DNA from: Mesostigma viride
Lineage: Eukaryota > Streptophyta > Mesostigmatophyceae > Mesostigmatales > Mesostigmataceae
Length of the DNA stretch: 64,000 nt
Assembly (NCBI GenBank): GCA_009746045.1
Contig: RPFO01000972.1
Span: 299,001-363,000, forward strand
Direction: 5' to 3'
Shown: positions 14,670 through 64,000 of the stretch, in pieces
How positions within the stretch are numbered: position 1 is the stretch's first letter
How the letters are laid out: each line of letters starts with the position of its first letter
Notes under the pieces: model-generated
Database searches by the model: none
What the model saw: only the letters and a program-made list of their open reading frames with translations
Told to the model about the DNA's origin: nothing
Position numbers and translations under genes: made by a program

Positions 14670-14850
14670 GGGTGCTCCCACGTCTCGTAGTCGCGTTCGG
14701 AGAGCGAGGCGCACGCCGGGACATGCCGTCACAAGCACATCCCGACCGCGAGGGCAGTGGAGACCCGCCCCAACCCCCCCCGCCCCCGCCCTGGACTTGG
14801 ACTCCGCGGCCCCGCCGAGCGCTGCCGCCACTTCGCTGAAGTCGGCTGCC

Positions 14851-20083: not shown

Positions 20084-20091
20084 GTGGATAC

Positions 20092-21300: not shown

Positions 21301-21339
21301 CGTCACGTGAGCATAAGTCCTCAGGGAAATGAATATGGG

Positions 21340-22215: not shown

Positions 22216-22219
22216 ATTA

Positions 22220-25268: not shown

Positions 25269-28200
25269 CTAAACCCCAACACTGGGAGGATCCAGATGGC
25301 TCTGCACCTCCTCCAGCTGCATGATCAGGCTTTCCAGGTCACGCTTTGACAGCTCAAACACGTGGTCATTGGCGTCCACGCTTGCAGGGCCCCCATCAGG
25401 GCGGCCAGGCGGTGACAGGTGGAGGTGCAGCTGCAGCAGCGGCGCGTTGATGCCTGCGAGCTTGCTGCTGGACAGGACGTGCTGGTGTGTGTGCGTGATA
25501 AAATATTTTGTGCGCATGATCAACATCGGGAGCGGGAAGCGCGCGGATCAACAAATAAAATTTTTAGAGAATACATGTTTGATAACACATAACAAACAGT
25601 CAGGAGTGGGGATCGCGCGTATCGTGTCTTGGTCGAACAACAAATAGAAAACTAAATGCTGCTCAATGGTGCTATACGTTAGTACGTGGAAACGTGTGTA
25701 TTGGCATGGGGAGCAATCTCAGTGCCACAAGAGCAGTGGTGGAGGAGATGAGCGCAGAGATGCGTCAAGCAGTATCAATGAGTCGACCATCGCAGGCCAG
25801 AGAATCGGGAGAATCCGGACCATGGAAGTATGCCAGCAACTAGCTCGCTGCTGGACAGGGCGTGCTAGATTGAGGAAATGGCGCCCAGAAAACCACTCCA
25901 ATCACAGCGACGGCAGAGACGCGCCAGCAGCCAACAGTAAACTGCCAGCATAGGCACTGCCCATGGAGAAGCAGTTACCCACTGCTTACAGGGTCGGCTC
26001 TTGGCCATCCCTTCCCGGCTGCTATGGGTACAGAAATTCTGATAGCCGCCTTTAATCGCCACCTCTAATAGCTTCAGAACCCCCTTCCCCTACTCGAAAT
26101 TTCAGAGCTCGAACACCGCATCCCCAACAAGGTAGGCGTCCTGGTCATACTATCCCAACCTCCATGCATAGACGCATAGGCAAGGGCCAGCATGATAGTT
26201 TGCTAGGGTACATGGTAATACTAATGCCAATGATCATCCCAGCCAGCCCAACCTCAAGGGCTGCATGTGGGGTAGAACCATAGAGGCAGACCATAGACGC
26301 GGCTGCCAGGCGTCGATCAGCATGCAATCTCCAAACAAGATAAATTCCTGGCTGGAAGACGGCAGTCGAGCTATGGAATTGGCTCTAGAGGACAGAATGC
26401 GTGCGGGCTCAACGGCTATAGGCATCGTGCATGCATGGCACACAACGGCGGCCGTTATCCTGCCATAAGGGCCGAGGGCGCAGGATAAGCGCGCACACCG
26501 CTAATGCAGGATCAACACGAACCATGAATTGGCATCATGGTCTATGTGGACGCACTAGCTAGCATCGTCGCCCAACATAGCATACATTGGAGCAGACGCG
26601 GAGATTCGCTATCAACACGTACCACGCTAACGAAGCACACATAGGAGCGGACGATATTACTATGATATTCGATGCCAACACGTACCACCACCCTCCAATC
26701 AAAGTCCAGCAAACCGCCTGCGGCGTCCACACGCACACTCGCAGCGTCCATCCCGGCTTGTGATGACAGCGGGTCTCTCGTGATCGGCGCCCCCGCCACC
26801 GAGCTCCGCCCCCCTTCCCCCGCTTCCACCCCTCCCTGAGCCGCCGGCAAGGCACCCACTGCTGACTTGCCCGCCTGGGCTTCCACCGCTTCCTCGGAAC
26901 CGTCATGTACAGCTGTGGACTCATCCGGGGTGGCTGCTGAGCCTGCCAAATGTGCCGCCCCTTGCTGCTGCAGCAGCCGGTCTGGCGAGGCAAAGGTACG
27001 GCCCTTTCCTGGGTCCACGAGCCCTTGGGCATCCACCTTGTTAGTGATAAGTGGGCTGTGGGTAAACAGTGGGCCGGTGGTAGTAAGTGATGCGGAGGCG
27101 GTGGACACATGCGCGGAGCGTGCGCGGATGACCCGCCCGTGGGCCGCGACGGCCCCCGCCAGCACAGCACAGGCGCGCGGGTCAAGTGGGTCGGGGCAGT
27201 GCTGACTCAGCTCGTTCAGGGCCTGGGGGGAGAGGGGGGGCGGCAGAGAGGGGGATGTCGGGGATCAGGGAGGGAAGTGTGTGTGTGTGTGGGGGGGGCG
27301 AGCGATACGTCTGGGGATGGTGAGGGAAGGGGAAGGAAATACCATTCCTTCCTTCCTTTCTTCCTTCCTTCCTTCCTTCCTTCCTTCCTTCTTTCCTTCC
27401 TTCCTTCCTTCCTTTCTTCCTTCCTTCCTTCCTTCCTTCCTTCCTTCCTTCCTTCCTTCCTTCCTTCCTTCCTTCCTTCCTTCCTTCCTTCCTTCCTTCC
27501 TTCCTTCCTTCCTTCCTTCCTTCCTTCCTTCCTTTCGCACACCTCCGTTGGGAGAGTCGCGGGTTATCAACTTCGACAGGTGACAGGTGACAGGTGACTG
27601 GTGACAGGTGACAGGTGACAGGTGACAGGTGACAGGTGACAGGTGACAGGTGACAGGTGACAGGTGACAGGTGACAGGTGACAGGTGACAGGTGACAGGT
27701 GACAGGTGACAGGTGACAGGTGACAGGTGACAGGTGACAGGTGACAGGTGACAGGTGACAGGTGACAGGTGACAGGTGACAGGTGACAGGTGACAGGTGA
27801 TGGTAATGGTATCGAACGGTCAGAATGATGCAGCAAAGAAAGGTCGTGTGACATGGTGCGCTGGCGTACAACCGGAGGAAAGGGAGGTACCTGCGACATG
27901 GTGCATTGGCGCCCGGAGGCATCTTCCAGGAAGGTCAGCAGGCAGGGACCCAGCTCGTTGCCGAGCTGTTCCTTGAGACGGGAGGCGGCCTTGGCAGGAT
28001 CCGTCCCGGCATGCAGTGACAGCAGAAGGGCCTCGACTACCTGCAAGGTATAGGGGTGAATAGGGGGGAACAGGGGTGCATAGGGGAGAATAGGAGAGAC
28101 TAGGGGGGTGAACAAGTGTGAAAAGGGACGTATTCAGTCGGAAACAAAAGGACCCAAGATATATACAAACAATTTATACAAGAAAACAATAAATACAAGC

Positions 28201-28500
28201 AAGCAAACAACACAAAGTTTGGCAAGAATAACCAAGCAGCCCCACTGGAATGCTGGCATCCAAATGCCGTTTCTGCTCGCCAGGACACATGCGTCCACCA
28301 AGCGGCCTTTCCCCAAATACAGGGGCCAAATCCTCGATCGAATGCATTGCAGCAATTCCGAGTACTGCGTAAACAGGCATGCACGTTCCAAATTAACTAG
28401 GTGCCGGGCCAGCAATGACTCGACAGCTTACCGTTTTTACTGACGCGGCGTCGTGCTGCCGAAGCAACCCTGAAAGCATTGTAGGACTCGGTTCAGCCAT
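25269..28500 (-). CDS. COMM-domain-containing protein, 4 exons
   Basis: Exons on the minus strand are 28,500-28,432 (starts MAEPSPTMLSGLL), 28,040-27,891, 27,222-26,686 and 25,481-25,269 (stop TAG). All junctions are phase 0 with GT-AG ends, giving 322 residues. Residues 24-73 form the helical N-terminal part (VVEALLLSLHAG). The COMM domain is split by the last intron: LLDFDWRVV before it, HVLSSSKLAGINAPLLQ and FELSKRDLESLIMQLEEV after it. The WRV-x-L-SSS pattern is closest to COMMD4 in my memory, but the subfamily is not settled. COMMD proteins form the Commander complex in endosomal recycling. About 120 residues of Ala/Gly/Ser-rich sequence in exon 3 make it much longer than the usual 200. 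Introns contain copies of exon edges and long satellites. Confidence 0.75.
25843..25866 (-). repeat. Copy of COMM exon 4 acceptor edge
   Basis: The stretch reading GCTGCTGGACAGGGCGTGCT (plus strand) matches the real exon 4 start at 25,460-25,483 with few changes, 383 bp upstream within intron 3. Confidence 0.7.
26604..26626 (-). repeat. Copy of COMM exon 3 donor edge
   Basis: CAACACGTACCAC (plus strand) at 26,613-26,625 is identical to the real donor region at 26,677-26,689. Neighbouring bases are also similar (ATTCGCTAT against ATTCGATGC). It lies within intron 3 in the same orientation. Confidence 0.65.
27345..27535. repeat. (CCTT)n microsatellite
   Basis: About 190 bp of CCTT with a few TTTC interruptions, in intron 2 of the COMM-domain gene. 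Confidence 0.95.
27576..27800. repeat. (ACAGGTG)n heptamer array, about 32 copies
   Basis: An almost pure 7 bp satellite in intron 2 of the COMM-domain gene, with one ACTGGTG variant near its left end. On the plus strand every unit contains GGTGA, but the gene runs on the minus strand, where the unit reads CACCTGT. Confidence 0.95.
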
Positions 28501-29145
28501 GCTAATTGTTCAGTGCAGGTTGTCACCAGGACTTGAAGAGATGGGAAATTGATTTGTAAAATCCTGTCAAACTGCTGCTTTAGTCCGAATGCCCAACTGA
28601 TTTAGCGCTGTGAGAGTCAGGCATTGGCTAGAGAATTCCAGGCGGCCATCAAATTCTCATTCTAACCCATGCCTGCGATGGTGCCACAGTATAAATCGGT
28701 TCGGACGATATTCTCGTGAATTGCAAAGACTTCACCACCACGTTTGATAAAAAAAATTGACCTCCACGTTGATCAATTCTGGTTATTAAATCATAGCACG
28801 GTGTGCGCCAACTGCCAAGTGCTAATTAAATTATTACGAGGCCCCGCGTACTACTGTACCTACGTAGTAAAATTTACCAAGGGCACGGACGTGAGGATGA
28901 CAGGGCGACCATACTATACTGTTAGGAAATGGCTGAATGGGAAGAATTTATTAGGCCGGGCAGGGGCCGGGCAAAATTTGCCCAATAATCGCCCAGTAGC
29001 TACTAGCTACTGGTCAGATAGCCGAATAGCCTGTTTCAAGAGTACCTATTAAACCATAACGCAGGCCACATGCAACCATATTGCAAACGACCGTCGAAGT
29101 GGTTACCAGTGAATTACCACGGACAGAATGATCTGAATACCGGTA
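28501..29145. other. Intergenic, nothing recognised
   Basis: Upstream of the COMM-domain gene. No second gene is supported. Confidence 0.4.
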
Positions 29146-29557
29146 CACCCCCCCCCCCACGTTTAAGATTGGGGTCCGGCCAACCCAGGGCTGCGATCTT
29201 AAACCTAAAATCAAATCCAGGGTTGACGATCTTAAACCTGAGAAGATCTTAAACCTGAGGGGGCGCGGCGCGGCGCGCCCCGCCGGAGCCCGCCAATAAT
29301 TGATGCATGAGTCCTGCAGTGTAAGCCATGATTGGAAGTTTTTGACATTAATAACAACACCGCCAATAAATAATAAAAAAAAATCAATACCGTTGCTCGT
29401 GGTCTGTACACTGGGCACTGGCCGGAACTTGGCAGCTTTTTGTACCAACTTTAAGATCTTTTTGCCCAAAACCAGCCCTGCGATCTTAAACCTAAAATTT
29501 CAAAATCCAGGGGCTCATGATCTTAAACCTGAGAATCTTAAACGTGGGGGGGGGGTG
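29146..29557. mobile_element. MITE with TA target, 412 bp
   Basis: Ends are inverted repeats of about 22 bp (CACCCCCCCCC then ACGTTTAAGATT), flanked on both sides by TA (29,144-29,145 and 29,558-29,559). Inside are four or more copies of GATCTTAAACCT. TA duplication with short inverted ends fits a Tc1/mariner-type non-autonomous element; the superfamily is inferred. Confidence 0.65.
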
Positions 29558-29559
29558 TA

Positions 29560-30139: not shown

Positions 30140-35761
<5,622 letters not shown>

Positions 35762-38028: not shown

Positions 38029-41000
38029 TCAAACATCTTCGAAGAGCACTACCTTCTTCACCGTGGTCAAAAAGGGCTTGGAGTGCGGCGACAGCGGCGT
38101 TGGCGAGCCCAGCATCCCCCGAGCGCCCATCATGCCCGTGGCCCCGAGCGCACGGCGGCTAGGGGAATCGAGCGCCGATAGCCCCAGGGAGGCCCCTGCC
38201 TTGGGCGACGCGACGATCTCGGGCAGATCCGGCGCGGACATGGATAGGGAGGGCGCGCGCTTGAGGGGGAGCGCGCCCGTGGTGGGCACGAATGCCCTGT
38301 GTCGGATAGGGGAGGGGCGGGCAGGGGAAGGACGGGCAGGGCAGGGGGAGGGGAATACGGTGAGGGACGCAAGCATGTAATAGACAAAAGCACAAGGCAT
38401 CAGTTTCATAATAAGCACGAGGGTCAGAATGGACACAGGCATCAGTTTCATAAGGAGCACGAGGGTCAGAATGGACACAGGCATCAGTTTCATAAGGAGC
38501 ACGAGGGTCAGAATGGACACAGGCATCAGTTTCATAAGGAGCACGAGGGTCAGAATGGACACAGGCATAATGGGTGATGACCAGCCCACGTATGGACCGC
38601 AGGAGGAGAGGGTGATGACATCCTGATGGACGCAGGAGAAGAGGGGGCGAGGATAAGCGGCACAGAGATAAGCGGCACAGCGATAAGCGGCACAGACTTG
38701 TTCTACCATGGGAAACTCGAGGCGGGACAGTGAAGACACCTATATGAGAGGATGCCCACATAAGAGTACGTTGTACTCTACCATGAACACTGCGCCCACC
38801 TCTGGCGAAAATGTTCCCCTGCATTCGCTGGTCCACCACTTGGTCACTGTATCCCAACCACCCTATACTATACTACAACTATTCTATACGATGATCTGAC
38901 CTCACCACAAACGCACCTCTGGCTGATATTCCCCTGCAGCCGCTGATCCACCGTGCGCGCTCACTATATCCTCATCATCTCTATACCGTACCACAATCAT
39001 CCTATACCACTATGACACCACCACAACCCCCACCGCACACACAAACGCACCTCTGGCTGATGTTCCCCTGCAGCCGCTGATCCACCACACGCTCGATACG
39101 GGCCGTCTCCTCCACGATGCCGTACGGTGCCGCCGCGCGCACCGTGGCCTTGACCACGCGCGGCGACCCCTTGGCGCTGCCCGCGCCGCTGGGGGGCACG
39201 ATGCTGCTGTTGAGCGGGGCGCCCATGCGTGCGGACCCATGGGGCGACGGTAGCGGCTCGAGCGTTCCGGGGGGGGGGAGCTTCTGGGAGCGGGGCGGGC
39301 TGAGTGGCCCCAGCGGGTAGCCCGTGTGGCCCCCCACGCGGAGCGAGCGCATCTCGGCCTCAATGCCAGGCATGGTGCCGGAGACCAGCGTGCGTCCGCC
39401 TGGCAGGAGGTCATGTTTGGTTCGATGGAAGAGATTGTGGGCGGGAGGTAAGGGTAGCCGTGGGGCAGGGCAGAGACCGTTTGGAGCCAGCGAACACGTT
39501 CATGATGAGAATGACAAGGTTGACGGTCATGCTAACATTGATGACAGAGTCCCCGTTCCCGCACCCCTCCCCCCCTTCCTGCCCCCCTTCCTGCCGCACT
39601 CCTCCCCCCCTTCCTGCGCCACTTCCTGCCTCAACTCCTGTCCCCCTCAGTGCCCCTTATTACCTGCCCATTACCTTCCTCGTCAAACAGGTCTCTCCCT
39701 GTTCCTCATGAACCTGGGCGTGAGTTCGGGACATTCTCTCCCCCCCTCCTCCCTCCCCCATTCCTTGACCCCTCTTACCCTCCTCCTCTCCCTGTTCTGC
39801 CCCCTCCCTAGCCCCTTCGTGCCACACATTGCCATGCACCCATGGCCTGAAAAGGCGCGTTGAACCCACCCGGTACCCGGTACCGTCCTCCCTCGAGCTT
39901 GAAGTCCTTGTGCTATATATCAAGGAGTCTTTGTGCTTTATATAGCCTCTTCTTGCCACATTTTGCAACCTACCCGTGGTGCCTAAAGGACATGTTGAAC
40001 GTGTACCCATGGCCTCGAACGGCGGGTTGAACACGCCCGGCATGGTCGCCCCATTCTGCCCCTTCCCTAGCATATTGGCACCGAGCCTGCACCACACCCA
40101 CTTATGGGCTCGAAAGGCGAGTTGAACACGGCCGGCACGGTCGCCCCATTCTGCCACTTGCCTAGCCTATTGGCACCAAGCCTGCCACCCACCCATGGCC
40201 TCGAAAGGCGAGCTGAACACGCCCGGCACGGTTGCCGTGCTCAGCAAGTGGTGGCTCTTGCGCATGAACTCCTGCTCCTCCGCCTGGCGCGCCGCCTCTG
40301 CCGCCGCCTCAGCCTCCGCCACCTGCGGGGTGGGCGATGACACGAGCAAGGAAGGAAGCAAGGAACGCATTCAGCACATCCGTGCCAATATATGTATAGA
40401 GAGTGCGGTGGAACTCAGGGATAAGCATGCCTGATTAGCCTCAAGCATTACAAGCCATAGACCTAGTTGTGGCAGCTATCCATCCGTCCATCCGTGGCTC
40501 CTGACCAAAAACCACGTTCAAGAAACACACTTTGTGTGAACGCGTGACAGACACGCACGGACGACACGTACATGCCACCTGCATTTGTTCATGATTAGAA
40601 AAAGTTGCTCGTAGATTCACTGCTCATCGTAAGAAAGTGATGGAAGCCGTCGCCCCTCTCCCAGTTTCCATGTGCAGTACTGCCATTCACTGTGCATGCA
40701 TCACACTGTGCATGCCCCAACCATCTCTGTACCACACACACTCTTACCACAAGCAACTAAGCAGGGCTCCCTGCCATGGAATCCCCCCTCTCACCTGCGC
40801 CTGGTACTTGGCCTCCATCTCGCTCTTGAGCACGTCGGTCTTGGCCAGCACGCTCTGGATGTACGCCTTGCGCGCGAGGAAGCTGTGCTTAAACTTGCGG
40901 CTGTGGTAGCCGCTGCGGGGTCAAGGGGGGAACGGGAGGAGTACAGGGATGGGAGGAGTGCGGTGAAGGGAGGAATGAGGTCAAGGGAGGGATACGCGGA

Positions 41001-48092: not shown

Positions 48093-48186
<94 letters not shown>

Positions 48187-51100
48187 GTGTCTCCCCTAGC
48201 ACGCCTTGTCTAGGGGCTTCAAAGCAAGTGGTAGGTTGCCATAGGCCTCCGACAAATGCTCATGACTTCCTTTTCTATTTATACCTGCCATCAAATTGAT
48301 ACCTTTCTATTATTTCTTGACATACTAGAATTACTAGCTGGTGGTATTTACTAATGTATGCATGCCATTTATTTGATCCATCAATTACGTTCTGCTTCCT
48401 GCCCGTGAGCGCACCTGTCGCAGGTTGGCCACGTGGAGCGCTACAAGGCGGCGGCGCTGGCCCCCCTGCTGGACGCGCAGCTCGTCCGCTGCGAGGCGGT
48501 CGTGCCGCGCGGCAGCAACAACGTCTACAAGATGCCCTGCAACGTCTTCCTCTTCACCGCGGATGCCAACAAGGATGCCGTCGTGCGCAAGCTGGCCAGC
48601 GCAGGTGGGAGGTCTCTCGCTGATGTTTTATTTAGTCACGTGCAGCGTATCGAAACCTTGCCATGTCCTGGGACACTGTCATCCTTATGCTGGCGGCCGC
48701 AGGTGGGCCAAGGCGCCTGTGGGCCCTGGCGCATGTGGGCCTATGGATTTGAAAGGCAAGGCAACCCCCTTGCGTGGAGCCGCGGTCGTGTGGGTGGGCG
48801 CGGTCGTGTGGGTGGGCGCGGTCGTGTGGGTGGGTGCGGTCGTGTGGGTGGGCGCGGTCGTGTGGGTGGCTGAAGCTTTCTGCGCCGCACAACATTATCG
48901 CAGGCCAACCTAGCATAGTAGGTAGCAGTCACATAGCAGGTGCAGTACCTGGGGGCACAGTGGTGTAAATGTGGCTCTGTCAAATATGTGTAAATGCGTA
49001 TCTTGGCTGGTGAGTGTCTGTTATCGGCTCTGTCAAATGCCAGAAAGTCTATACTACTGTCTGTCAGATTTAATCTGCGGTCACCATGTCACAAGGTTTC
49101 TGTTGCTCCGTCACTGATGCATTGGTTAACCTGCTCCCTGCTGGGGGCACCAATAGCCTGTTGGTTTCTGTCCGGAAATTTTACAAGTCCTTTCCTTCTG
49201 TATTCCTACCTTTTGGGTTTCCACCGCAGGGCTCCCTGTCATCCCCCTCACGGGCGCGGACGCCAGTGAGTATGGCGACGCGATGGCCGGCTCTCAAGAG
49301 GAGCGGCGCGCGAGTGGGGGCCCGCTGCCACCGTCGATGACGCAGACCGTCACCATTGCTGCGATGGAGGATGAGCTGGACATGCTGTTTGAGAATCTCG
49401 GTAAGTTGGGGTGAACAACTGCGGTTGGGGTGAACCACGTGGGGGTGAGAGGGTCTATTCGCATGCTGGTCTGCAGTGGTCGAGAGGGAGGATGAGCTGG
49501 ACGTGCTGTTTGAGAATGTTTGGAGGAAGTAATGATTATTGCACTGGGGATGTGAACATTGCAGCACGACGTGGGGAAATCGGGGGGAATCGGGTTTGGA
49601 TGGGGGAGCAAACCTGGGCGCATTAGGGTGTGTTAACCTGATTGCTAGCCGCGGTAGCCCTGGAAGGTGGTTCGGAGGTATGGCTTACAGAGCTTGGTAC
49701 GTGGGGGGTTGCATGAGGTATGAATATAATAATATAGAAAAATAGGGTTTATTGGCTACGGTGGAAAGACATGTAAGATGGGCTGGTCTGGTGGATTGAG
49801 GAGCGGGCTGAGCAACAACGGGCGATAAAAGACTTAGCGTTGACTTCATTGACATGATTGTTAGGGAGGAATGGTGTGGGGGGGGCGGGGGGGGGGCGGC
49901 AAGTCAGGGGGGTACATTTGTTACTCTGAATACGGTGGGGTGGGGCCTTGTTTTTTCCTTCCTGCAAAGAAGTCCTCCTTCCGAGCGTGGGGTCATGGAG
50001 CTCGTGCTGCCGATGCATGAGGCGGTGTGCACGGGGCTGTGCTACAGGATCCAGACGCTAGAATAACAGTTGTATATTTTTTTGCATGTACGTGGTAATT
50101 TCTAATGAACATTCCTGCTCTGCTATCTATTCGACTGCAGAGGCGGACCGGGCATTTACGGAACTGATGGAAGCAGACGCCAGCATCATCCAGCGGACAC
50201 TCTTCCCGCACCAAAAGGAGTGCCTGTCCTGGATGTGAGTATAGTGGAGAGTGGTGTAGGCAGTATAGGAGCGCCTACAGTGGGATGGATCTACGAGTGC
50301 CTGTCCTGGATGTGAGTATAGTGGAGAGTGGTGTAGGCAGTATAGGAGCGCCTACAGTGGGATGGATCTACGAGTGGCCTGTCCTGGATGTGAGTATAGT
50401 GGAGAGTGGTGTAGGCAGTATAGGAGCGCCTACAGTGGGATGGATCTACGAGTGCCTGTCCTGGATGTGAGTATAGTGGAGAGTGGTGTAGGCAGTATAG
50501 GAGCGCCTACAGTGGGATGGATCTACGAGCGCCTGTCCTGGATGTGAGTATAGTGGAGAGTGGTGTAGGCAGTATAGGAGCGCCTACAGTGGGATGGATC
50601 TACGAGTGCCTGTCCTGGATGTGAGTATAGTGGAGAGTGGTGTAGGCAGTATAGGAGCGCCTACAGTGGGATGGATCTACGAGTGCCTGTCCTGGATGTG
50701 AGTATAGTGGAGAGTGGTGTAGGCAGTATAGGAGCGCCTACAGTGGGATGGATCTACGAGTGCCTGTCCTGGATGTGAGTATAGTGGAGAGTGGTGTAGG
50801 CAGTATAGGAGCGCCTACAGTGGGATGGATCTACGAGTGCCTGTCCTGGATGTGAGTATAGTGGAGAGTGGTGTAGGCAGTATAGGAGCGCCTACAGTGG
50901 GATGGATCTACGAGTGCCTGTCCTGGATGTGAGTATAGTGGAGAGTGGTGTAGGCAGTATAGGAGCGCCTACAGTGGGATGGATCTACGAGTGCCTGTCC
51001 TGGATGTGAGTATAGTGGAGAGTGGTGTAGGCAGTATAGGAGCGCCTACAGTGGGATGGATCTACGAGTGGCCTGTCCTGGATGTGAGTATAGTGGAGAG

Positions 51101-54100
51101 TGGTGTAGGCAGTATAGGAGCGCCTACAGTGGGATGGATCTACGAGGGCCTGTCCTGGATGTGAGTATAGTGGAGAGCGGTGTAGGCAGTATAGGAGCGC
51201 CTACAGTGGGATGGATCTACGAGTGGCCTGTCCTGGATGTGAGTATAGTGGAGAGTGGTGTAGGCAGTATAGGAGCGCCTACAGTGGGATGGATCTACGA
51301 GTGCCTGTCCTGGATGTGAGTATAGTGGAGAGTGGTGTAGGCAGTATAGGAGCGCCTACAGTGGGATGGATCTACGAGTGGCCTGTCCTGGATGTGAGTG
51401 GCCTGTCCTGGATGTGAGTGGCCTGTCCTGGATGTGAGTGCCTGTCCCCGAAATGAGTGGAAAGAAGCCGTTTTATGGAGAGCAGGAGAAAGAGTAGGAG
51501 CGCCTGTACTGTTTAGGGTTTCAGAGCGCCTGTCCTGGATGTGAGTCGGCTCAAAGATAGTTAGGCGGAGAGTTATGGGGGGAAACTGTGGTGTCATGTT
51601 CCCAAAAAAGTGGTGGGTTATGGTTCATTTGCATCTCCTGTGGCTAACTTCGTGGCTCATCGGTAAGCCATTAGCCTAAGAGAGTGCCGGGCTATCGCCT
51701 GTTTCTGTGTATGCGTATCATGTCGGCTGAATAGGCGCCGGGCGATAGTTTGTTTCTGCGTAGGCTTATCCTGTCTGCTGGTTATGGGTGTGCCTAACTG
51801 CTGAATATGAGCATGTCTATCTGCTGAATAGGGGCATGTCTATCTGCTGAATATGAGCATGTCTATCTGCTGAATAGGGGCATGTCTATCAAATCTAAAC
51901 CATGCGGCCATTGGATTTCGACAGGAACTGTTTTGGAAAGCGCGGGCACTTACATGCACAAGGAGCATCGGTTACTGCACTATTCGTGTCGGACCTACTT
52001 TGTCGCACTGAACTGAAATGAGTTGGACTTGACGCCCAGTTCCAGATAGAGAGTCAAGAATCTTGCTTTCATTTTCCTCCTTGTTAGTTCCTTCCCAGCC
52101 TTTCCAACCTTCCCAACGTTCCTACCCTACCTCCGCTTCCTCACCTTCCAAAGCTTCCCAGCCTTCCTCATATGGTTGGGAAGGGTAGGAAAGTGTAGGA
52201 AGCTTGGTCCCTACCGTTTTACTTTGTCACCGACATCTGATATCATTTTATCCGGCATCTGTCACCACCACCCTGCACTCTGCAGGGTCGGGCGGGAAAA
52301 CAATAGCAGCCTGCCTCCCTTCTGGCAGCCCGTCAACGAGGGCGGCAAGGTGATGTACTTGAACACCATCACCAACCACGCGACACAGGCGCGGCCTGCC
52401 AGCCTGAGGGGGGGCATCCTGGCAGGTGCGTGCTGCGTCCATGGGGACGTTGGGGAGTGTGCGCTTGTCTCTTTGCAATAGGCTCGTCTCTTTACAGTAC
52501 GCTCGCCTCCTTACAGTACGCTCGCCTATCACAGTGTGCTCATCCCTTTACAGTACGCTCGCCTCTTTACAGTACGCTCGCCTATCACAGCATGCTCATC
52601 CCTTCATAGTGCGCTTGCCTCTTTACAGTACGCTCGCCTATCACAGTGTGCTCATCCCTTTACAGTACGCTCGCCTCTTTACAGTACGCTCGCCTATCAC
52701 AGTGTGCTCATCCCTTTACAGTACGCTCGCCTCTTTACATAACGCTGCCAAAGTGTCTCTACTTCAGTATTCCGCTTCTCATCGCGTAATAATGTTTTGC
52801 TGGTTTGTTAATTCACGGCCGGATGGCATGCGCCTGGGCAAGACGCTCATCTAGAGTCCGTGTGCCGATTGCACTCGGTTGCCCTCCATACGCTGTTTGT
52901 AGTATCGCCAACGTACTTGTCTGCTGCTGGTATTCCAACGGGCTTTCTGTTGCGTCGTGTCCAGACGATACGGGCCTGGGCAGCAGGCCCGTCACTTAAC
53001 CTAGACTTGCCTCTTCTTGTCAAGTTACTAGTATTATATATTTGTTAGTTTGGCGTCATGTCCAGACAATACAGGCCTGGGCAGCAGGCCAATCACTTAA
53101 CCTAGACTTGCCTCTTCTTGTCAAGTCATTATTTGTTTGTTTTGTGTTTTCCCTCTTGTTATCAATTTATTGCTGATTTGTTCGGTGTGTTTCCTCTTCT
53201 TTTCCAGTCATTATTTGTTTGTTTGCTGTTGTGTCCCGACTCCAGACAATTTGGGCCTGGGCAAGCCCTGTTTCTTTTTTGACATTCTTATTCTTCTTAT
53301 CGGCTATGACCACTTCCTCTTTGTCGCATCATGACCAGACGACATGGGCCTGGGCAAAACGCTCACTTTGCTGGCTCTCATCGCCACCAACCGGCCGGGG
53401 GCGCAGCTGCCGCCCGTGGAGCGGGTCCCACGGAGCATGGTGCCCACTGCGGAGGCTGCTGGGTCGAAAGGGAAGCGGCCCAAGGCAGCGGAAAAGGTGT
53501 GTGCACAATATTAATGATGTTGAAGTTCCCCGATACCAAACATGGAGCAACCCTTGGGTGTGCCGAGGGTTTTGCCGGCGCTCGCCAGTTGGGACATAAA
53601 ATCAGCAGCAGTGCCTTGCCGTGGGCGCAAGGAGAGCAATCTGCTTTTGCACTCCTTTCCCCATGGCCAGTTGGAGCTAAGAGCATTGCTCCGACGTAAC
53701 TAAATCATACAATAGTTGCTGATCTTAGCAGGTGGTTCTATTCCCCATACCGATTTGCCCCGAAGGGGACATGTTTCTTATTCCCCAGACAGGTGCCTTC
53801 GGTCTCCCTGGTCATTGCTGCTCAATATTGCTGTTTCCTTTTCCTGTTGTATTTTCCGCTTTCATAATCCTGTAATATTATTTTTACTTATAACAGATTT
53901 TGAAATATAACTCCCGTTCTTTCTTTTTTACTCTCTTTCCTGCTTTCTAGGAAGCTATGAACCTCCACAGCTGCCCAACCGGCAGAATTCTCTTATTCTA
54001 ACCCTCATTGTTATACATTAGTTTATTTCTATTTTCTATCATTTTTTTTCACTCTCCTAGTTGAGTTCCACAGGATGCTGCAAACCCTCGGTTGCCTAAG

Positions 54101-57100
54101 CCGTCCTATCTATTCTCTGGTCCAATCCCTCAACGTTCCTATCTATTCTCTGGTCCAATCCCTCAACGTTCCTATCTATTCTCTGGTCCAATCCCTCAAC
54201 GTTCCTATCTATTCTCTGGTCCAATCCCTCAACGTTTCTATCTATTCTCTGGCCCAATCCCTTAACCTAATCTACCGTTTCCTTTCTCCTCTTTACCATT
54301 GCCCGTTTTCCCCAGAAAGCCAAGCCCGCGGCTGACAAGCCGTTGAAGAACGCGGTTGAAGTTGCTGACCCGCCGCCGCAGGTGCCGGCTGCCAACGGAC
54401 CCAAGAGCACACTCGTCATTACCCCTCTCACGGTAGGTGACTTCCTGTGGAGGGTTCTCGCAGATTAGACTATCCTTGAGATTAGATCCTCAGCCCGGAG
54501 CACTTGATTTCATCATCCAGTCTACAAAACAGTTCATCATTTCATCATCCAGTTAACAAAACATTGCAACGGTGCAAGCAAGATGTTGTCGACACAAATT
54601 GTTTTTCTTGTCGCACATATGATGGGGCTTGTCGCGTACTATGATGATGGGGCGACAGGAACGTAACGATCGCTTTCATCCTGCCTTCAGTCGTCAACCT
54701 GTTGCACCTGCTTACGTGGCAGCACTGCCTTCACTCCGCCAACCTTTGGTGCATGGTTTCTTCTCTTCAGCAGTGTGTTTCTTTTCAAATAAGCAGTCCT
54801 TGTCATTTGGGTGGTGTTGAAGCAGAAAGACAGGAAAAGTAAGCCTTAGCAGACTTTATTCGAGGTTTTTTTGGGGGGGAGGGAAGGAAATGCCATTCGC
54901 GAGGTCGACCAGAAAAAAAAATGGAGGCACGCCGTGCATTTATTGCAAATCACACGTGCACAGCTTTCCTTCTCTTGTCTCAGACATCCCAAGTCTCAGA
55001 CATCCCAAGGTGTGTGAAATCTGTCACAATCATCTGACAGGGCAGCTCACATCAAGGCCTCTTCCTGCTGCCTTGTACCTCACATCAATGCCTCTTCCTG
55101 CTGCCTTGTACCTCACATCAAGGCCTCTTCCTGCTGCCTTGTACGGCTCCGCCACCTGCGTGTGTCCTCTCTTTACATTGTGTCCATCTACGCGTACCCT
55201 GGGAGCCAGGTTCTCTCAAATTGGACGACGCAGCTGGAGGAGCACACGGCCTCAGGCCGCCTCTCTGTGTGAGCAAGCTTCTTGGGTGGATTGACATGCT
55301 TCTAGCTATTGGTTAGTCGTTTTGGGGTCGAGTTAACACTGCCAGTAGCTGTTAGTTTGTTTGTGTCGAGTGAATATGCTTCGAGGTAGTTTGCTAATGC
55401 TAGCATGTAACTTGCTTTGGGGTCTAATTGCTCTGTATTCTACGATTTGGGTGCGCAGAAAGTTTGCGCGAACTGGTGCTGCAATCTTGTGCCGCGTGCG
55501 AGTAGCGTGCCGCGGGTCGCGATTGGGTGGTCGACCGTAGGGGTTCCCTTACATGCGTGCCCTTGGCTTGGTTGCGTACACTGCTTGCGTGCCAAAGTTG
55601 TCGCCAAAGTGTGCTACCATTGCGGCAAAAAATTTCAGACAGCAAACAAATTTCATGGGCTCCGGAGGACGTGGTTTATTTGCCCAAACTCTTGCCGAAA
55701 GTGTTGCGCAAACTGTTCCATATTCAAGTTGCGGCTGTAGCGTGTCTTTGTGACCACAGAATCGCGGCATTTCAAACGATTCTAGCAGGATGCGCCGCAC
55801 GCACCAACCTAGCTGCTCGAATTATTTGCAGCAGACAAGTACGGGAGCAACGCGATGGGGCCCCTGCTACTAACCAAAGCCCTTGAGCAAAAGAACCGGT
55901 CATTAATTTTGGTACTACTATAACCATGGTACACCGGTCGTTTACTGTCAGTGTCAAGTGGCGTGTGGACTTTGGGAGTGGCGATGCGCAAACACGTGGC
56001 CTGGCGTGAGCGACGATTTTTGGCTGCGAGGATTGCGACTTGGGTTCGGGCCGGTGGGCACGATATGGGGACTTGGGCTCCAAGTGCTCGAGAAAGGGAC
56101 CAATTGACGTTGGGTTTAAAAGGATTACAACACTTTGTGAAGCATATTCTCAGGGCAGGGTAGATGGCATTCAATTGCTACGGCCTGTACAGTCAGCATG
56201 GGTGTGGACGGCAGGTGGAGGATGCTGATGTGGCACGCAAGCTAGAGAAGATGCCTACTTTTTCCTTCCTGTTGTCTTTGGAAAAGGGTAATTGTAGGAT
56301 ATATTCAAGAGTGTGTCCGCGAGAGTAAGGTAAGAGTAGGATATATTCAAGAGTGTGTCCGCGAGAGTAAGGTAATTGTAGGATATATTCAAGAGTGTGT
56401 CCGCGAGAGTAAGGTAATTGTAGGATATATTCAAGAGTGTGTCCGCGAGAGTAAGGTAATAGTAGGATGTATTCAAGAGTGTGTCCGCGAGAATAAGGTA
56501 ATAGTAGGACATATTCAAGAGTGTGTCCGCGAGAGTAAGGTAAGAGTAGGATATATTCAAGAGTGTGTCCGCGAGAGTAAGGTAAGAGTAGGATATATTC
56601 AAGAGTGTGTCCGCGAGAGTAAGGTAATAGTAGGATATATTCAAGAGTATCTAATGGTGCCACCTGTGAGGGCTGCCTACCTAAGTGAAGCGCCAGAGGC
56701 CATCTGGGCACTTCACTTATCCTTATACGCATGACGCAATATGCGTACAAGGCTGGTAGCTTTACATGCAGATCCCTCGCATGGCCCGGGTCTAAGGTGT
56801 GAGCATCATGCCAAAACCATGCACATCAAGAACACCCTAGAAAGCTCTATCCACACTGCCCAGCCATCGTGGAGAACGCTGGTCCATCCACAAAGAATCT
56901 TAATCATTCATTCTGCTTGCAAAGGCTTCTTACCATGGTTACCTTGCCTTGGTAGCCTATTGTCTCATCCATGTGCTTGGGCACTACCGTTACTACACCG
57001 TAAACACTTTTATTTACCCAAAAAAGAATAGAAAAGAAAGGCCATAAACCAACAACTCATGTCCCCATTTATCCATACCCTCAGGTTCTTGAAGAATGCC

Positions 57101-60100: not shown

Positions 60101-63100
60101 TATGAATTCTGGGACCATAGAATTCCAGTGCCATATCGAAGGCAGTAAGTCTTCTATTCTACTGGTCCCATTCCTCCCTTGGACGTTTCCGGCATGCTGC
60201 TATTCCCTTTACAAAGGAGAGTCCAGTGGCTGCTCGGGTCTGACTCACTGCCTTGCTTTTGGTGGGGCGTGTGGGCTTGCACATGACGGATTCAGGTACC
60301 AGCATTATGGACCGAACCGATCCAAGGACCCTGCCTTCATCGCCAAGCATGATGTTGTCCTCTCCACTTATGGGTTAGTACATCAATGCGACAACCAGCG
60401 CAGGCCAGAATCTTGAGAATGCGGATCACGGTAGCGCGAGCCTGCTGTTATCTTATCCGCTGCTGTTATGTTACCTATTTGTTACTCTTGCAAGCATAGG
60501 TATGCCCCCTCTACTTATGGGTGGGTAGCTCACCCGCATTTGTATTTTCTTTTCATGAACTAGTATGAGAATATGGGTGGACTATCCCTCTTTCCTTATC
60601 CTGCTACTCATATTCGAACTAGTATGAGAGTATGGGTGGACTATCCCTCTTTCCTTATCCTGCTACTCATATTCGAACTAGTATGAGAGTATGGGTGGAC
60701 TATCCCTCTTTCCATATCCTGCTACTCATATTCGAACTAGTATGAGAATATGGGTGGACTATCCCTCTTTCCATATCCTGCTACTCATATTCGAACTAGT
60801 ATGAGAATATGGGTGGACTATCCCGCTTTCCTTATCCTGCTACTCATATTTGAACTAGTATGAGAGTATGGGTGGACTATCCCTCTTTCCATATCCTGCT
60901 ACTCATATTCGAACTAGTATGAGAATATGGGTGGACTATCCCTCTTTCCTTATCCTGCTACTCATATGCCCACTTGTGGTTGGGTAGCTTGATGGTGTGG
61001 CAGTGTTTCGAGACAACTGCCGCGCACAATTACTTGTGAGAGGGAACAACGAATTTTTTTTTTTTGCACTCGTAATTTTTGTACATGTCCAGCTATTTGT
61101 CTCGCCTCCGTCCTTGCTGGTTTAGACAAGCAATCGCGTTGCAATGTTTCGTGTGTTCTCTGGCTGCATGTGTGTGTATGCCCAGCTGCATGTGTGTATG
61201 CCCAGCTGCATGTGTGTGTATGCCCAGCTGCATGTGTGTGTATGCCCAGCTGCATGTGTGTGTATGCCCAGCTGCATGTGTGTGTATGCCCAGCTGCATG
61301 TGTGTGTATGCCCAGCTGCATGTGTGTGTATGCCCAGCTGCATGTGTGCATGTGTGCATTTTTGCCCAGCTGATGCACGCTCGACCAGCTATCGGCTTAT
61401 CGGGGGTTGCCTCTCGAAGCAGACCCATTGGTCACTGTACTGGTCACTACAGTGCATGGGGGGTTGCCTTGCAAACCACTAATACACTGTACCAGACCCA
61501 TTGGTCACTATACTGGTCACCACAGTGCATGGGGGGTTGCCTTGCGAAGCAGACGTATACTGTACGAGACCCATTGGTCACTATACTGGTCACCACAGTG
61601 CATGGGGGGCTGCCTTGCGAAGCTGTAGAGCAGCCGTACTGCGCAGGGAGAACATTTATAAGGGAAACGTTTGTTGGCATACAGGCTATAAGTAAGTTTG
61701 TTTGCTTGTTTGCATACAGGCGCAGCTATCAGCAGCAGCCTGTCATTGCTGGGTGGGTGGTGGACATGCCATCTAAGGTTCTGCCTGCCCAGAGGCATCC
61801 AGCCATTTGTCTGGTCCACTAGAGTTGTGAGGCTTGAGGCCATAGTATACGCTGTCGGCTCTTTGTCAAGTGTTTGATCCCAAACGCTGTCAGCTCTTTG
61901 ACAAATGTTTGGTCCCAAACGCCGTCGGCTCTTTGTCAAGTGCTTGGTCCCAGGCAAGATTGCTAGCTTTAAAACCACTATCACTGTCTTTAGCTTGTAA
62001 GACCATGACATCGTGTTTGTTATAATGGGGTCATGGTTTCGAGTTTGGACTTCTTGTTTTCATGGTCACACCCTTTTGTCCGCGGATTTCTTCCCAGGAT
62101 AGGATCGAGGCTCTTCCTACTACTAGGATCAAGGCTCTTCCTACTACTAGGATCAAGGCTCTTCCTACTACTAGGATCAAGGCTCTTCCTACTACTAGTA
62201 TCAAGGCTCTTCCTACTACTAGGATCAAGGCTCTTCCTACTACTAGGATCAAGGCTCTTCCTACTACTAGGATCAAGGCTCTTCCTACTACTAGGATCAA
62301 GGCTCTTCCTACTACTAGGATCGAGGCTCTTCCTACTACTAGGATCGAGGCTCTTCCATAGTAGTACCGTTTTTGTGGTTTCTGTACTCGGCATTCTCTT
62401 CATCATGCCCTCTCGGCATTCTCTTCATCATGCGCTCTGACTCGCTGTTTCCTCTTCACTGTTTTCGCTTTCCAGGATACTGTCCTTATTCTGTCCTCTG
62501 TATCCTCCTCTGTCTGTTTCATATTTCTAGCTAGGGTCTTCTTCTGTATGCTTTTTACCCTGTAGATGTTTGTTAGTCTGTCTGTTTCATATTTCTAGCT
62601 AGGGTCTTCTTTTGTGTGCTTTTTACCCTGTAGATGTTTGTAGTGCTGTGGGGGGGTCTGACTCGGTGCCCTCTTGACCGCAAATGTTCTCATGACCTCG
62701 CTCTTCCTCCACTGGTTTCCCTTGCCAGGATTCTTCTCAGCGACGGCCTCACAGGGCCCCTGCAAAAGGTCGACTGGCTGCGTGTGGTCCTCGATGGTAA
62801 TGACAGCAGCGACAGCACACTTTCCTCTTCTCTTTTCCTTTGGATGTGCTGTCAAAGTCCCCTTTTCTGCATTCTCCTGTCGCAAACGCGCGCGCTTTGG
62901 TTTCAGTTTCGATCCAGAACACATCGGATGGGTCCAGTCATACAAAGGAGTTGACAATCAGCATGCTGTGGCAATCGTGTTGTGGGCATTGTTGCTTCAT
63001 GGCGTGGTGGTCTGATGCCACCGAAAACAGAGGCTCACAATATCAAGTCGACCAAGGCATTGGTATCGAAGGGTAAGTTCCAGCATTGTTTCCAACCACA

Positions 63101-63704
63101 ATCGCTGGCACCCGTTACTGCAAGGTTGCTTTGAACATCGGCCTGGTGCGTGCATCCCATTCTTCTTCTCTTCCATCTACCTCTCTTGCTTTTGCCGGGC
63201 CCTTTACAAATTTACCGCACTCTCAGTGCAGCGATCTACATTAAAATCGGAGGAATGAGAATTTATACGCTTAAATGCCACTATGACCTTCTGAGTCGCC
63301 TAGCGTTTGAGCATGCTACTTGCCACACTCTGGCTGCTGCCAGGCATGCATTCAATTAAAGCCACTTTTCATGGCATTGTGCCTTTTTCTGTTTCCTGCA
63401 TCTTCTTCTCCATTTCCCCTTACTGCTGCTTCTCGCTTATTCCTGCAGCTGCACTCGCTCTCCAATGCGCGACCTTTCCTCTTATGTATAGCTGATAATA
63501 GCTATAGGGATAGTATAGCTGATAGTTGTATCTGCTTCTTGGGACCATCCTCTTGTGGCCAATCTCGTCACTCCCTTGCTGCTTTTCCTTTCATCCTCTC
63601 CCTGCAGCCGCGTACGCACTCAAGTCCGAGCGCCGCTGGCTGGTGACGGGCACCCCCATCCAGAACCAGCTGTCGGACCTGCAGTCCCTCATGCAATTCC
63701 TGCG
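45627..63704 (+). CDS. HLTF: HLTF/RAD5-type SNF2 helicase, 3' end outside window
   Basis: Exons: 45,627-45,894; 46,037-46,116; 47,090-47,170; 48,424-48,604; 49,230-49,400; 50,141-50,234; 52,286-52,425; 53,339-53,496; 54,316-54,432; 55,210-55,268; 60,296-60,373; 62,729-62,796; 63,031-63,072; 63,608-63,704. All phases agree (544 complete codons so far). After a low-complexity N-terminus comes a HIRAN domain (about residues 95-205: [35 protein letters not shown]), which in HLTF binds 3' DNA ends at stalled forks. SNF2 motifs follow: [20 protein letters not shown] (Walker A, about 339-346), [16 protein letters not shown] (about 495-502, split by an intron before a 42 bp exon) and [10 protein letters not shown]. 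The RING finger and second helicase lobe expected in the family lie beyond 64,000. The introns carry the exon-edge copies described separately. Confidence 0.92.
47240..47470 (+). repeat. Three copies of the HLTF exon 3 end
   Basis: The real end is GTGGACAACATCCTGCGCG then TGCAG and GTACG (47,146-47,175). Copies at 47,240-47,274, 47,346-47,372 and 47,445-47,470 keep GTGGACAAC or ATGGACGAC and end in a donor-like AGGT, spaced about 105, 106 and 99 bp. Confidence 0.9.
47590..47745. repeat. Tandem repeat, about 40-60 bp x 3
   Basis: Units contain TTGGTCCGCCTCCCATTCTT. Located in HLTF intron 3. Confidence 0.85.
48088..48187. repeat. (CATAGTC)n heptamer array, about 13 copies
   Basis: Pure 7 bp units in HLTF intron 3. 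Confidence 0.95.
48783..48870. repeat. Tandem repeat, 18 bp x 5
   Basis: Units GGTCGTGTGGGTGGGCGC in HLTF intron 4. Confidence 0.95.
49487..49517 (+). repeat. Copy of the HLTF exon 5 end
   Basis: GGAGGATGAGCTGGACGTGC, then TGTTTGAGAAT, matches the real exon end (49,365-49,395) with about one change, 124 bp downstream. The copy lacks the GTAAGT donor (it reads GTTTGG). Confidence 0.9.
50211..51440 (+). repeat. Splice-site minisatellite: HLTF exon 6 end and donor, 77 bp x about 15
   Basis: Each unit carries the last exonic bases (GAGTGCCTGTCCTGGAT), the donor GTGAGTATAG and about 50 bp of intron. The first unit is the true exon end at 50,218-50,244. Some units have one extra G (78 bp). The array then decays into three or four short 20 bp repeats (51,379-51,440), and one more copy lies at about 51,525-51,546. 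Each unit also holds CTACAG, a potential acceptor, 31 bp before the next donor. Confidence 0.95.
51780..51895. repeat. Short tandem repeat (CTGCTGAATATGAGCATGTC)
   Basis: Four alternating units of about 23 bp in HLTF intron 6. Confidence 0.8.
52485..52745. repeat. Tandem repeat of TTTACAGTACGCTCGCCT, higher-order
   Basis: Short units arranged in a higher-order repeat of roughly 57 bp with TATCACAGTGTGCTCATCCC, in HLTF intron 7. Confidence 0.9.
52823..53275 (+). repeat. Four copies of the HLTF exon 8 start (Walker A codons)
   Basis: The real start reads CCAG, ACGACATGGGCCTGGGCAAA (53,335-53,358). Copies at about 52,825 (ATGCGCCTGGGCAAGACGCT), 52,963, 53,062 and 53,241 keep GGCCTGGGCA or GCCTGGGCA, three of them with the preceding CCAGAC. 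All lie upstream of the exon in intron 7. Confidence 0.85.
54105..54262. repeat. Tandem repeat, 33 bp x about 5
   Basis: Units contain TCTGGTCCAATCCCTCAACG. Located in HLTF intron 8; the last unit is diverged. Confidence 0.9.
55037..55145. repeat. Tandem repeat, 33 bp x 3
   Basis: Units contain AGGCCTCTTCCTGCTGCCTT. Located in HLTF intron 9, shortly before exon 10. Confidence 0.9.
56090..57525. repeat. Inverted repeat with a 42 bp minisatellite and repeat family X
   Basis: About 56,095-56,280 recurs inverted at about 57,355-57,520 (shared block TGGCATTCAATTGCTA and a GAAGATGCCTACTTTTTCC stretch). Between them lie 42 bp tandem units x 8 (56,287-56,650, core TATTCAAGAGTGTGTCCGCG) and an intact copy of repeat family X (about 56,790-57,060). 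All of it lies inside HLTF intron 10. Confidence 0.7.
57430..58186 (-). pseudogene. Unrecognised minus-strand coding remnant in HLTF intron 10
   Basis: Two overlapping minus-strand frames read [20 protein letters not shown] and, after a frame change near 57,830, [19 protein letters not shown] and [20 protein letters not shown]. The composition is that of real protein, but no family is recognised. It is probably part of a mobile element lodged in the 5 kb intron, with the remnant at 58,599-59,594. Confidence 0.35.
58599..59594 (-). pseudogene. Unrecognised minus-strand ORF with 19-residue tandem repeats, one stop
   Basis: The minus-strand frame opens at ATG 59,594 ([13 protein letters not shown]) and is interrupted by one TAA near 59,406. 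It then stays open in the same frame to at least 58,600. The central part includes five copies of a 57 bp unit (58,850-59,128) giving [19 protein letters not shown]-like 19-residue repeats. A basic Ala/Gly-rich tail follows. The frame through the repeats argues for past selection or recent expansion. No known family is recognised. Confidence 0.4.
60503..60990 (+). repeat. Copies of the HLTF exon 11 end around a 59 bp minisatellite
   Basis: The real end is CTCTCCACTTATGG then GTTAGTAC (60,360-60,381). Copies are CCTCTACTTATGGGTGGGTA at 60,508 and CCACTTGTGGTTGGGTAGC at 60,970. Between them about seven 59 bp units (60,545-60,966, core GAGTATGGGTGGACTATCCC) occupy the intron. Confidence 0.75.
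61158..61350. repeat. Tandem repeat, 22 bp x about 9
   Basis: Units CTGCATGTGTGTGTATGCCC. Located in HLTF intron 11. Confidence 0.95.
61425..61625. repeat. Tandem repeat, about 70 bp x 3
   Basis: Units contain CACAGTGCATGGGGGGTTGC and GACCCATTGGTCACTATACT. Located in HLTF intron 11. Confidence 0.85.
61835..61952. repeat. Tandem repeat, about 37 bp x 3
   Basis: Units contain CTCTTTGTCAAGTGTTTGAT and AAACGCTGTC. Located in HLTF intron 11. Confidence 0.85.
62100..62358. repeat. Tandem repeat, 24 bp x about 11
   Basis: Units AGGATCAAGGCTCTTCCTAC plus TACT. The 8-codon length creates long spurious frames on both strands. Located in HLTF intron 11. Confidence 0.95.
62505..62642. repeat. Duplication, about 68 bp x 2
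   Basis: The unit contains TCATATTTCTAGCTAGGGTC and is repeated with small changes just upstream of HLTF exon 12. Confidence 0.85.
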
Positions 63705-63772
63705 GTGAGTACACCAAGTGTCACAGTATGTTACATGACCTACATCAAGTACGCAGGTTCTGACCATTAAGC

Positions 63773-63898
63773 AGTCCCTCATGCAGTGCCTGGTGAGTGC
63801 ACCGATTGGTTTAGTGACCTTACAGTACCTTGCATCCTTGGCAGGATGCAACCTGGAGTCAGTCCCTCATGCAGTTCCTGCGGTGCGTGCACCCTACA
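63773..63898 (+). repeat. Two copies of the HLTF exon 14 end
   Basis: The real end is CAGTCCCTCATGCAATTCCT then GCG and GTGAGTACACC (63,682-63,715). Copies at about 63,773-63,805 (CAGTCCCTCATGCAGTGCCT, GTGAGTGCACC) and 63,860-63,892 (CAGTCCCTCATGCAGTTCCT, GTGCGTGCACC) lie about 90 bp apart and keep donor-like bases. Confidence 0.95.
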
Positions 63899-64000
63899 GC
63901 CGATCACTGTAGCGACCTTACAGCGCAGTACCTACGCACCAGGATAATAATTATTGATTGGTGTAACTAATAAAGGATGAATTTTAAGCTTACATACGCA

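Follow-up and report, generated by a model that had tools for sequence, protein, structure and literature searches.

The window that we analyzed, a 64,000-nucleotide stretch of the Mesostigma viride assembly (contig RPFO01000972.1), carries four modelled genes: a THG1 gene of seven exons and an HLTF/Rad5-like gene of 14 exons, the latter continuing beyond the window end, on the + strand, and a COMM gene of five exons (with the end of exon 2 provisional) and a SPATA17 gene of seven exons on the - strand. The modelled proteins contain Thg1/Thg1C, COMM, IQ, HIRAN and SNF2 Pfam domains, and GT is found at 28 of the 29 modelled donors. The THG1 protein aligns over its full length with its best PDB entry, 3otb, which we take to be human; this alignment is gap-free at the e2/e3, e3/e4, e4/e5 and e5/e6 boundaries, and eight residues are missing from the query one residue past e6/e7. 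A fifth gene is represented by a single SUV3 exon. Searching this DNA for RNA families and tRNAs returned none; its GC content is about 53%, and plant-type telomere-like repeats are present, both of which argue against a lancelet. Positions 40000-48000 matched no plasmid, and the THG1 relatives found were two distant bacterial ones among genome contigs and none among viral contigs.

At 16 of the 58 exon edges tested (29 donor and 29 acceptor edges; the COMM exon 2 donor was left out), and in all four modelled genes, the adjoining intron holds a same-strand, diverged copy of the edge that scores above every null (Table 1), confirming that duplicated exon edges inside introns are a real observation. 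For each edge, the adjoining intron, taken to a maximum of 2 kb, was searched by alignment with 36 exonic nt, and a match had to exceed same-length chunks of other introns (300, 150 or 200, depending on the run) as well as its own reverse-complement score. The 300-chunk run alone gave seven acceptors at p ≤ 0.01, among which the HLTF exon 11 acceptor was dropped for its higher reverse-complement score. Dinucleotide-shuffled introns matched in 19/580 cases (a chance rate of about 3%), the reverse-complement control matched at 3/58 edges, and donor edges compared with non-adjoining introns matched in 0/161 cases. Varying the query (24, 36 or 50 nt) and the distance limit (500, 1000 or 2000) gave 9-12 donor and 5-6 acceptor edges. 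Exon-interior windows, at least 36 nt inside the exon, matched in 6/252 cases vs. 16/58 for the edges. No match was obtained at the two edges of the SUV3 exon. All nine tested edges of introns shorter than 280 bp (n = 5) lacked a match vs. 16/49 matching elsewhere (p = 0.05), a comparison confounded by the fact that duplication itself lengthens introns. We also considered whether the higher donor count (10/29 vs. 6/29 for acceptors) might be a trace of first-come-first-served splicing, and rejected this idea (p = 0.38).

Table 1. Copied exon edges in the window and the positions of their copies.
Edge	Span	Strand	Copies and remarks
COMM exon 5 (last), acceptor	25269..25481	-	25830-25866
COMM exon 5, stop codon		-	~25139-25170; score 37 vs. 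21 for the highest null and 20 for the reverse complement
COMM exon 4, donor	26686..27222	-	26601-26625, across the junction (exon -3 to intron +22)
COMM exon 3, donor	27891..28040	-	27832-27878
THG1 exon 2, donor	30588..30719	+	last ~32 nt at 30780-30810, 31529-31556
THG1 exon 2, donor, further copies		+	weak gapped match 31579-31617; copy-of-copy near 31400 (by eye)
THG1 exon 4, acceptor	34009..34178	+	33720-33747, overlapping the start of the 56-bp minisatellite 33733-33958
THG1 exon 5, acceptor	34662..34747	+	34549-34595, AG retained
THG1 exon 6, donor	34978..35085	+	35106-35162 (exon -65..-8, short of the junction)
THG1 last exon (35630-35761), stop codon	35630..35804	+	~35775-35804, within the 3' flank; score 27 vs. 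24 for the highest null and 17 for the reverse complement
SPATA17 exon 6, donor	39051..39399	-	38899-38962, 38797-38839
SPATA17 exon 5, donor	40193..40322	-	40073-40145, 40005-40050, 39830-39890
HLTF exon 3, donor	47090..47170	+	47240-47274, 47346-47384, 47440-47478
HLTF exon 3, acceptor	47090..47170	+	46968-47014 and, weaker, 46933-46953
HLTF exon 5, donor	49230..49400	+	49469-49517 (exon -52..-4)
HLTF exon 6 (50141-50234), donor	50141..51546	+	edge is the start of the 77-bp minisatellite 50218-51399; 17 intronic matches in total, the final three short
HLTF exon 8 (53339-53496), acceptor	52804..53496	+	52804-52849, 52943-52997, 53049-53098; fourth near 53240 (by eye); also a match in the final 150 intronic nt
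HLTF exon 9 (54316-54432), acceptor	54066..54432	+	54066-54104
HLTF exon 11 (60296-60373), donor	60296..60532	+	60491-60532
HLTF exon 14 (63608-63704), donor	63608..63893	+	63738-63808, 63860-63893

The edges that had been listed from an earlier inspection of the sequence were mostly recovered. That is, the listed donors of COMM exon 3, THG1 exon 2, SPATA17 exons 5 and 6, and HLTF exons 3, 5, 6, 11 and 14 all match, as does the HLTF exon 8 acceptor, while the SPATA17 exon 3 donor matched neither in the exon-edge test nor in the junction-spanning alignment. The listed acceptors of COMM exon 4 and THG1 exon 3 give no match in the present numbering, and those probably meant (COMM exon 5 and THG1 exon 5) do match; depending on the numbering, four to six matching edges were missing from the list, and the acceptors of THG1 exon 4, HLTF exon 3 and HLTF exon 9 and the donor of THG1 exon 6 were absent from it in any numbering. 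Four copies each had been counted for the THG1 exon 2 donor, where alignment gives two clear copies and one weak one, and for the HLTF exon 8 acceptor, where it gives three. The copy of the COMM exon 4 donor was found in the junction-spanning alignment only (the exon-only test gave p = 0.07, not a match), and two further donors that had looked copied by eye, those of HLTF exon 4 and THG1 exon 5, had no match in the exon-edge test, the former having none in the junction-spanning alignment either. The shared orientation of the copies was borne out not only at the edges but also across the introns, where direct local copies occur in 392/1132 tiles and inverted ones in 12/1132. A spacing of 75-130 bp holds for 7/11 first donor copies (the full range is 41-147 bp). 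A steady rise of divergence with distance was not borne out, being seen in 3/7 multi-copy families (the HLTF exon 6 array and the weak THG1 exon 2 copy excluded).

The copy continues at least 5 nt beyond the junction into intron sequence at 11/16 edges, stops no more than 2 nt from the junction at three, and falls 4-8 nt short of it at two. Among the 12 edges with a clear period, a sample of low power, the exonic share of the unit averages 0.43 and fits random breakpoints (KS p = 0.45). Copies outside the 77-bp array are 74-94% identical to their edges, many with indels, and some decoy copies are identical to their own splice-site edge over 42 nt. The acceptor copies of THG1 exon 4, COMM exon 5 and HLTF exons 8 and 9 lie 242-516 bp away, perhaps due to later insertions or to nearer copies that fall below the threshold. 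Three minisatellites (at HLTF exon 6, SPATA17 exon 5 and THG1 exon 4) overlap exon-derived sequence.

We consider it likely that these structures are the product of tandem duplication that is blind to position, followed by differential survival. Under this hypothesis, segments of about 40-150 bp would be repeatedly duplicated without regard to splice sites, possibly by slippage or unequal exchange. Duplications of coding sequence would be eliminated because they alter the protein, those lying wholly within introns would persist, giving rise to the minisatellites and to some of the intron length, and those straddling an exon edge would persist as well since their copy becomes intronic and splicing may continue at the outermost site. 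The exon half would then be held by selection while its presumably neutral copy decays, making exon edges the places where old duplications are easiest to spot. The part of the original prediction that invoked tandem duplication at the junction, with the exon kept by selection and the other copy decaying, is supported, whereas its preferential placement of duplications at junctions is supported neither by the rates in intron tiles nor by the stop-codon edges.

Specifically, a local copy was found in 29.6% of all intron tiles and in 10.8% of those outside arrays (a tile set to which the intronic halves of these junction duplications also belong) vs. 27.6% of edges. When the exon side is decayed equally to its copy, a correction that considers substitutions only and uses the divergence of the aligned part, the edge count drops from 16 to about 10/58 (17%), which is within the intron background of 10.8-29.6%; this background, coupled to one-sided decay, would explain the edge rate. 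Outside arrays, the uncorrected edge rate exceeds the intron rate, so that there may be a mild preference for junctions. Further, two of three stop-codon edges (those of THG1 and COMM) have a copy in the 3' flank, showing that splicing is not needed.

Alternatively, duplication might be tied to transcription or splicing, which would restrict it to introns and 3' flanks with frequent starts at junctions, so that exon edges are truly preferred. The distribution of tandem arrays is in line with this alternative: 39 were found in 28.4 kb of intron vs. one in 7.0 kb of adjacent intergenic DNA (p = 0.0025), and none was centered in the 4.6 kb of exon. The near-absence of arrays in adjacent intergenic DNA also counts against full position-blindness. 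Similarly, direct and inverted copies are equally frequent in intergenic tiles (15/269 each), and start-codon edges are duplicated in 0/4 cases as opposed to the two of three stop-codon edges. However, the intergenic sample is small, includes two divergent promoter regions that are perhaps constrained, and may hold further genes. Outside the four genes (positions 1-12500 and 18600-24000), in stretches that may themselves contain genes, direct copies do occur in 133/740 tiles vs. inverted copies in 56. Given also that intron background and one-sided decay could account for the edge rate and that the donor excess is not significant, we regard a link to transcription or splicing as unlikely. It is about as doubtful, and perhaps slightly more so, that in this lineage such coupled duplication would be nearly confined to introns and 3' flanks, seed minisatellites at exon edges and have become a main route of intron growth, with exon definition as the enabling condition. 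The position of arrays along introns showed no significant trend (KS p = 0.06).

Among the copies, the authentic site lies outermost, and GT is kept in 11-13 of the 16 decoy donors outside the array (13 if two decoys at THG1 exon 2 that need a 2-nt shift are counted) and in 17/17 within the HLTF exon 6 array. At five of ten donor edges (HLTF exons 3, 6 and 11, COMM exon 4 and SPATA17 exon 6) a decoy scores at least as high as the authentic donor, so that local strength does not choose the site. On the other side, every decoy at the remaining five edges scores below the authentic donor. Protein homology suggests that the decoys are probably unused and that splicing proceeds normally. Use of the outermost site in spite of strong decoys would be as exon definition predicts, and in an alternative splice-site database, preference goes to the sites closest across the exon where flanking introns are large (PMC9225289).

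The retention of GT or AG in many decoys could also mean that selection maintains the copies, whether as reserve or decoy splice sites or to provide alternative exon ends, and the decoys of COMM exons 3 and 4 would indeed leave the frame open, although the former has lost its GT. Nonetheless, retention of GT in at most 13/16 decoys is, by our estimate, about what would be expected free of selection at 74-94% identity, and every other decoy examined has a stop codon in the retained stretch, making maintenance by selection quite improbable. Even less credible is the gain of introns through tandem duplication of AGGT-containing coding segments (the Rogers model), which shares with our case a tandem duplication that takes in splice signals (PMC4974935, PMC2891723). 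Under that model, the intron should begin with a copy of the start of the next exon and finish with a copy of the end of the previous one; this arrangement was found in 0/46 tests (23 introns of at least 400 bp) as opposed to 13/46 for the opposite one observed here, no new intron was seen, and intron gain by duplication was rejected here. An assembly artefact or chance similarity is equally far-fetched since, while the near-identical 77-bp array may have an incorrect copy number, the other copies carry a divergence and indels that assemblers do not invent, and chance matches are rare.

The original prediction that no such process had been described does not hold, as the duplicated exon edges have a close counterpart in the amphioxus mirages. 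According to the reports on the globin genes BflGb6 and BflGb9, Adh3 (originally Canestro et al. 2002, as cited in PMC3087553) and PGBD5, mirages are minisatellite-like tandem duplications across 5' and 3' intron-exon boundaries, with units of 10-160 bp, AG/GT retained in many, imperfect copies in PGBD5, and splicing apparently unharmed (PMC3087553, PMC3902484). As in mirages, the repeat unit in the window crosses the boundary, both boundary types are hit, and the first donor spacings fall within the reported unit lengths. Unlike the lancelet cases, which were reported gene by gene, all four modelled genes of one window are involved, with many old, diverged copies and with stop codons affected too. 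The arrays are otherwise those of ordinary intronic minisatellites, in the same introns, except that the unit contains an exon edge and splice site. Among the literature matches listed, mostly from outside subscription journals, we recognized none that described the structure in organisms other than lancelets.

With decoy copies of the splice site at about a quarter of exon edges, these genes offer a natural experiment in splice-site choice by the spliceosome when sequence cannot discriminate. Further, the exon half provides a fixed ruler for the decay of each copy, by which intron growth could be dated. Finally, our results suggest that mirages are not peculiar to lancelets and are rather the expected residue of local tandem duplication wherever introns are large.

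Diverged same-strand duplicates of exon edges (i.e., the exonic nucleotides at a donor or acceptor) were found in the adjoining introns far more often than in controls, as the original prediction had claimed, although with some corrections. That is, when 36 exonic nt per edge were aligned to the adjoining intron, 16/58 edges had a copy there (10/29 donors and 6/29 acceptors, falling in 16 separate introns of the 30) vs. 19/580 with shuffled introns, 3/58 with the reverse complement and 1/58 with the reversed sequence, and these counts were little altered by query length or search range. No match (0/161) was obtained when donor edges were searched in other, non-adjoining introns of their own gene. 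Moving the query inward in 12-nt steps, matches fell from 10/29 to 7/27, 4/25 and 0/22 (at 36 nt) on the donor side, with 2/15 at 72 nt, and from 6/29 to 1/27, 1/24, 2/23, 1/20, 1/18 and then 0 on the acceptor side. Exon interiors, proposed earlier as the decisive comparison, provided only 6/252 matches (all windows at least 36 nt inside exons); however, few interior copies are to be expected of any tandem process, because a unit lying deep in an exon would be inserted into coding sequence.

These edges come from four gene models built from the sequence, encoding THG1, a COMM-domain protein, a SPATA17-like IQ protein and an HLTF/Rad5-like helicase, with Pfam matches to Thg1, Thg1C, COMM, IQ, HIRAN and SNF2. 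The names SPATA17 and HLTF are presumed by us, Pfam supporting the domains only. For THG1, protein homology identifies the outermost copies as the authentic sites, since the alignment to the best PDB match is full-length and gap-free at the exon 2/3, 3/4, 4/5 and 5/6 junctions; the query lacks eight residues of that match, one residue past the exon 6/7 junction. Domain matches and open frames suggest that the outermost copy is probably the authentic site in the other three genes as well.

Realignment with 25 nt of intron added covered 19 edges, namely the 16 matches and three borderline donors, and recovered a copy at COMM exon 4 but none at HLTF exon 4 or at SPATA17 exon 3, where a copy had been predicted. 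Copies contain 17-65 exonic nt (just 3 at COMM exon 4) at 74% to 100% identity, and the match extends at least 5 nt beyond the junction at 11/16 edges, terminates no more than 2 nt from it at THG1 exons 2 and 4 and COMM exon 5, and stops 4-8 nt short of it at THG1 exon 6 and HLTF exon 5. At donors the first copy lies 41-147 bp from the original; acceptor copies lie 106-139 bp away at THG1 exon 5 and HLTF exon 3, and 242-516 bp away at THG1 exon 4, COMM exon 5 and HLTF exons 8 and 9. The clearest case is HLTF exon 6, where the last 17 exonic nt and about 60 nt of intron start form a 77-bp unit repeated as a 15-copy minisatellite. Divergence was expected to rise with distance from the exon, which was true of only three of the seven multi-copy families.

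Junctions were compared with intron tiles of equal length under the same one-sided test. A downstream copy was found for 316/1067 tiles (29.6%) and an upstream copy for 315/1067, or 80/743 and 79/739, respectively, outside annotated arrays, these tiles taking in the intron halves of the junction duplications themselves. The raw edge rate was 27.6%, but the edge test is favored over the tile test because its exon half is spared decay. When every exon query was given as much divergence as its best copy shows (substitutions only), detection averaged 0.62 across the 16 matches, for a corrected edge rate of about 10/58 (17%), which falls between the two tile rates (all tiles and those outside arrays). 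Among the 12 edges whose period was clear (10 donors and 2 acceptors), the exonic share of the unit was evenly spread. Further, stop-codon edges were copied downstream, into the 3' flanks, in two of three cases, and start-codon edges in 0/4. Edge duplication is therefore not limited to splice sites.

Tandem arrays (period 9 or more) numbered 39 in 28.4 kb of introns vs. 1 in 7.0 kb of adjacent sequence taken as intergenic (p=0.0025), with none centered in 4.6 kb of exons. Intergenic tiles showed no excess of direct copies (15/269 direct and 15/269 inverted). Elsewhere in the window, seven arrays fall within the 7.4 kb preceding the SUV3-like exon, two within 18750-24000 and none within the 5.0 kb that follow the exon, and tiles gave 133/740 direct and 56 inverted copies, in stretches that may be partly intron. 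The contrast could reflect constraint in promoters and UTRs, or a process coupled to transcription could have produced it; with so small a sample, neither can be preferred.

Regions compared for arrays, and other features of the window
Feature	Positions	Remarks
Intron span compared	introns of 25269-64000	
Intergenic stretches compared	24000-25268, 28500-30139, 35761-38028, 43798-45626	
Stop-codon edge copy, THG1	35775-35804	
Stop-codon edge copy, COMM	25139-25170	
GC donor, THG1 exon 6	35086-35091	GCAAGT; sole non-GT among 29 donors
Trinucleotide repeats	30865-31263	~400 bp, ACG then ACT; separate two THG1 exon 2 decoy copies
Possible mobile element	12793-18603	terminal inverted repeats of 207 and 121 bp (94-95%) bearing telomere-like repeats of the plant type, (CCCTAAA)n on one side and (TTTAGGG)n on the opposite side; cysteine-rich ORFs in an interior inverted repeat of 980 bp (99%); no Pfam match in the 4/6 frames searched
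HLTF intron 10	55269-60295	5 kb, minus-strand ORFs; perhaps an inserted element
Minus-strand ORF in HLTF intron 10	58602-59405	57-bp repeat translated in frame
SUV3-like helicase exon	7394-7485	partial PF12513 match; no copies at its two edges; remainder of gene not found

Many intronic copies (decoys) retain a donor dinucleotide: GT is kept in 17/17 decoys of the HLTF exon 6 array and in 13/16 outside it, two of these (THG1 exon 2) only with a 2-nt shift. Scored with a weight matrix from the window's own 29 donors (leave-one-out), decoys exceed the authentic donor at HLTF exon 3 (+102, +298) and HLTF exon 11, equal it at HLTF exon 6, COMM exon 4 and SPATA17 exon 6 (+134), and fall below it at the remaining 5/10 edges. 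Read-through to a decoy would meet a stop codon except at COMM exon 3, where GT is lost, and COMM exon 4, where the added 63 nt are in frame. Because decoys score at least as high at half of the edges, the choice there must be positional or depend on more distant sequence. According to a database study (PMC9225289), sites nearest across the exon are favored when flanking introns are large, and the pair so favored is the pair needed here, for both donors and acceptors. We infer that exon definition operates in this organism.

The interpretation in the original prediction, tandem duplication placed preferentially at splice junctions, was half right: the duplication fits, while a preference for junctions gains no clear support. 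Nor is the structure undescribed, being already known from amphioxus "mirages", tandem duplications spanning intron-exon boundaries (PMC3087553, PMC3902484). The structural features of mirages are shared here, at the level of sequence. The Rogers model, intron gain by tandem genomic duplication, was rejected, with 0/46 tests in its favor. We class the exon-edge copies as a further case of the mirage kind, dense within this window; what makes them valuable is this density, together with the problem they pose of how splice sites are chosen.
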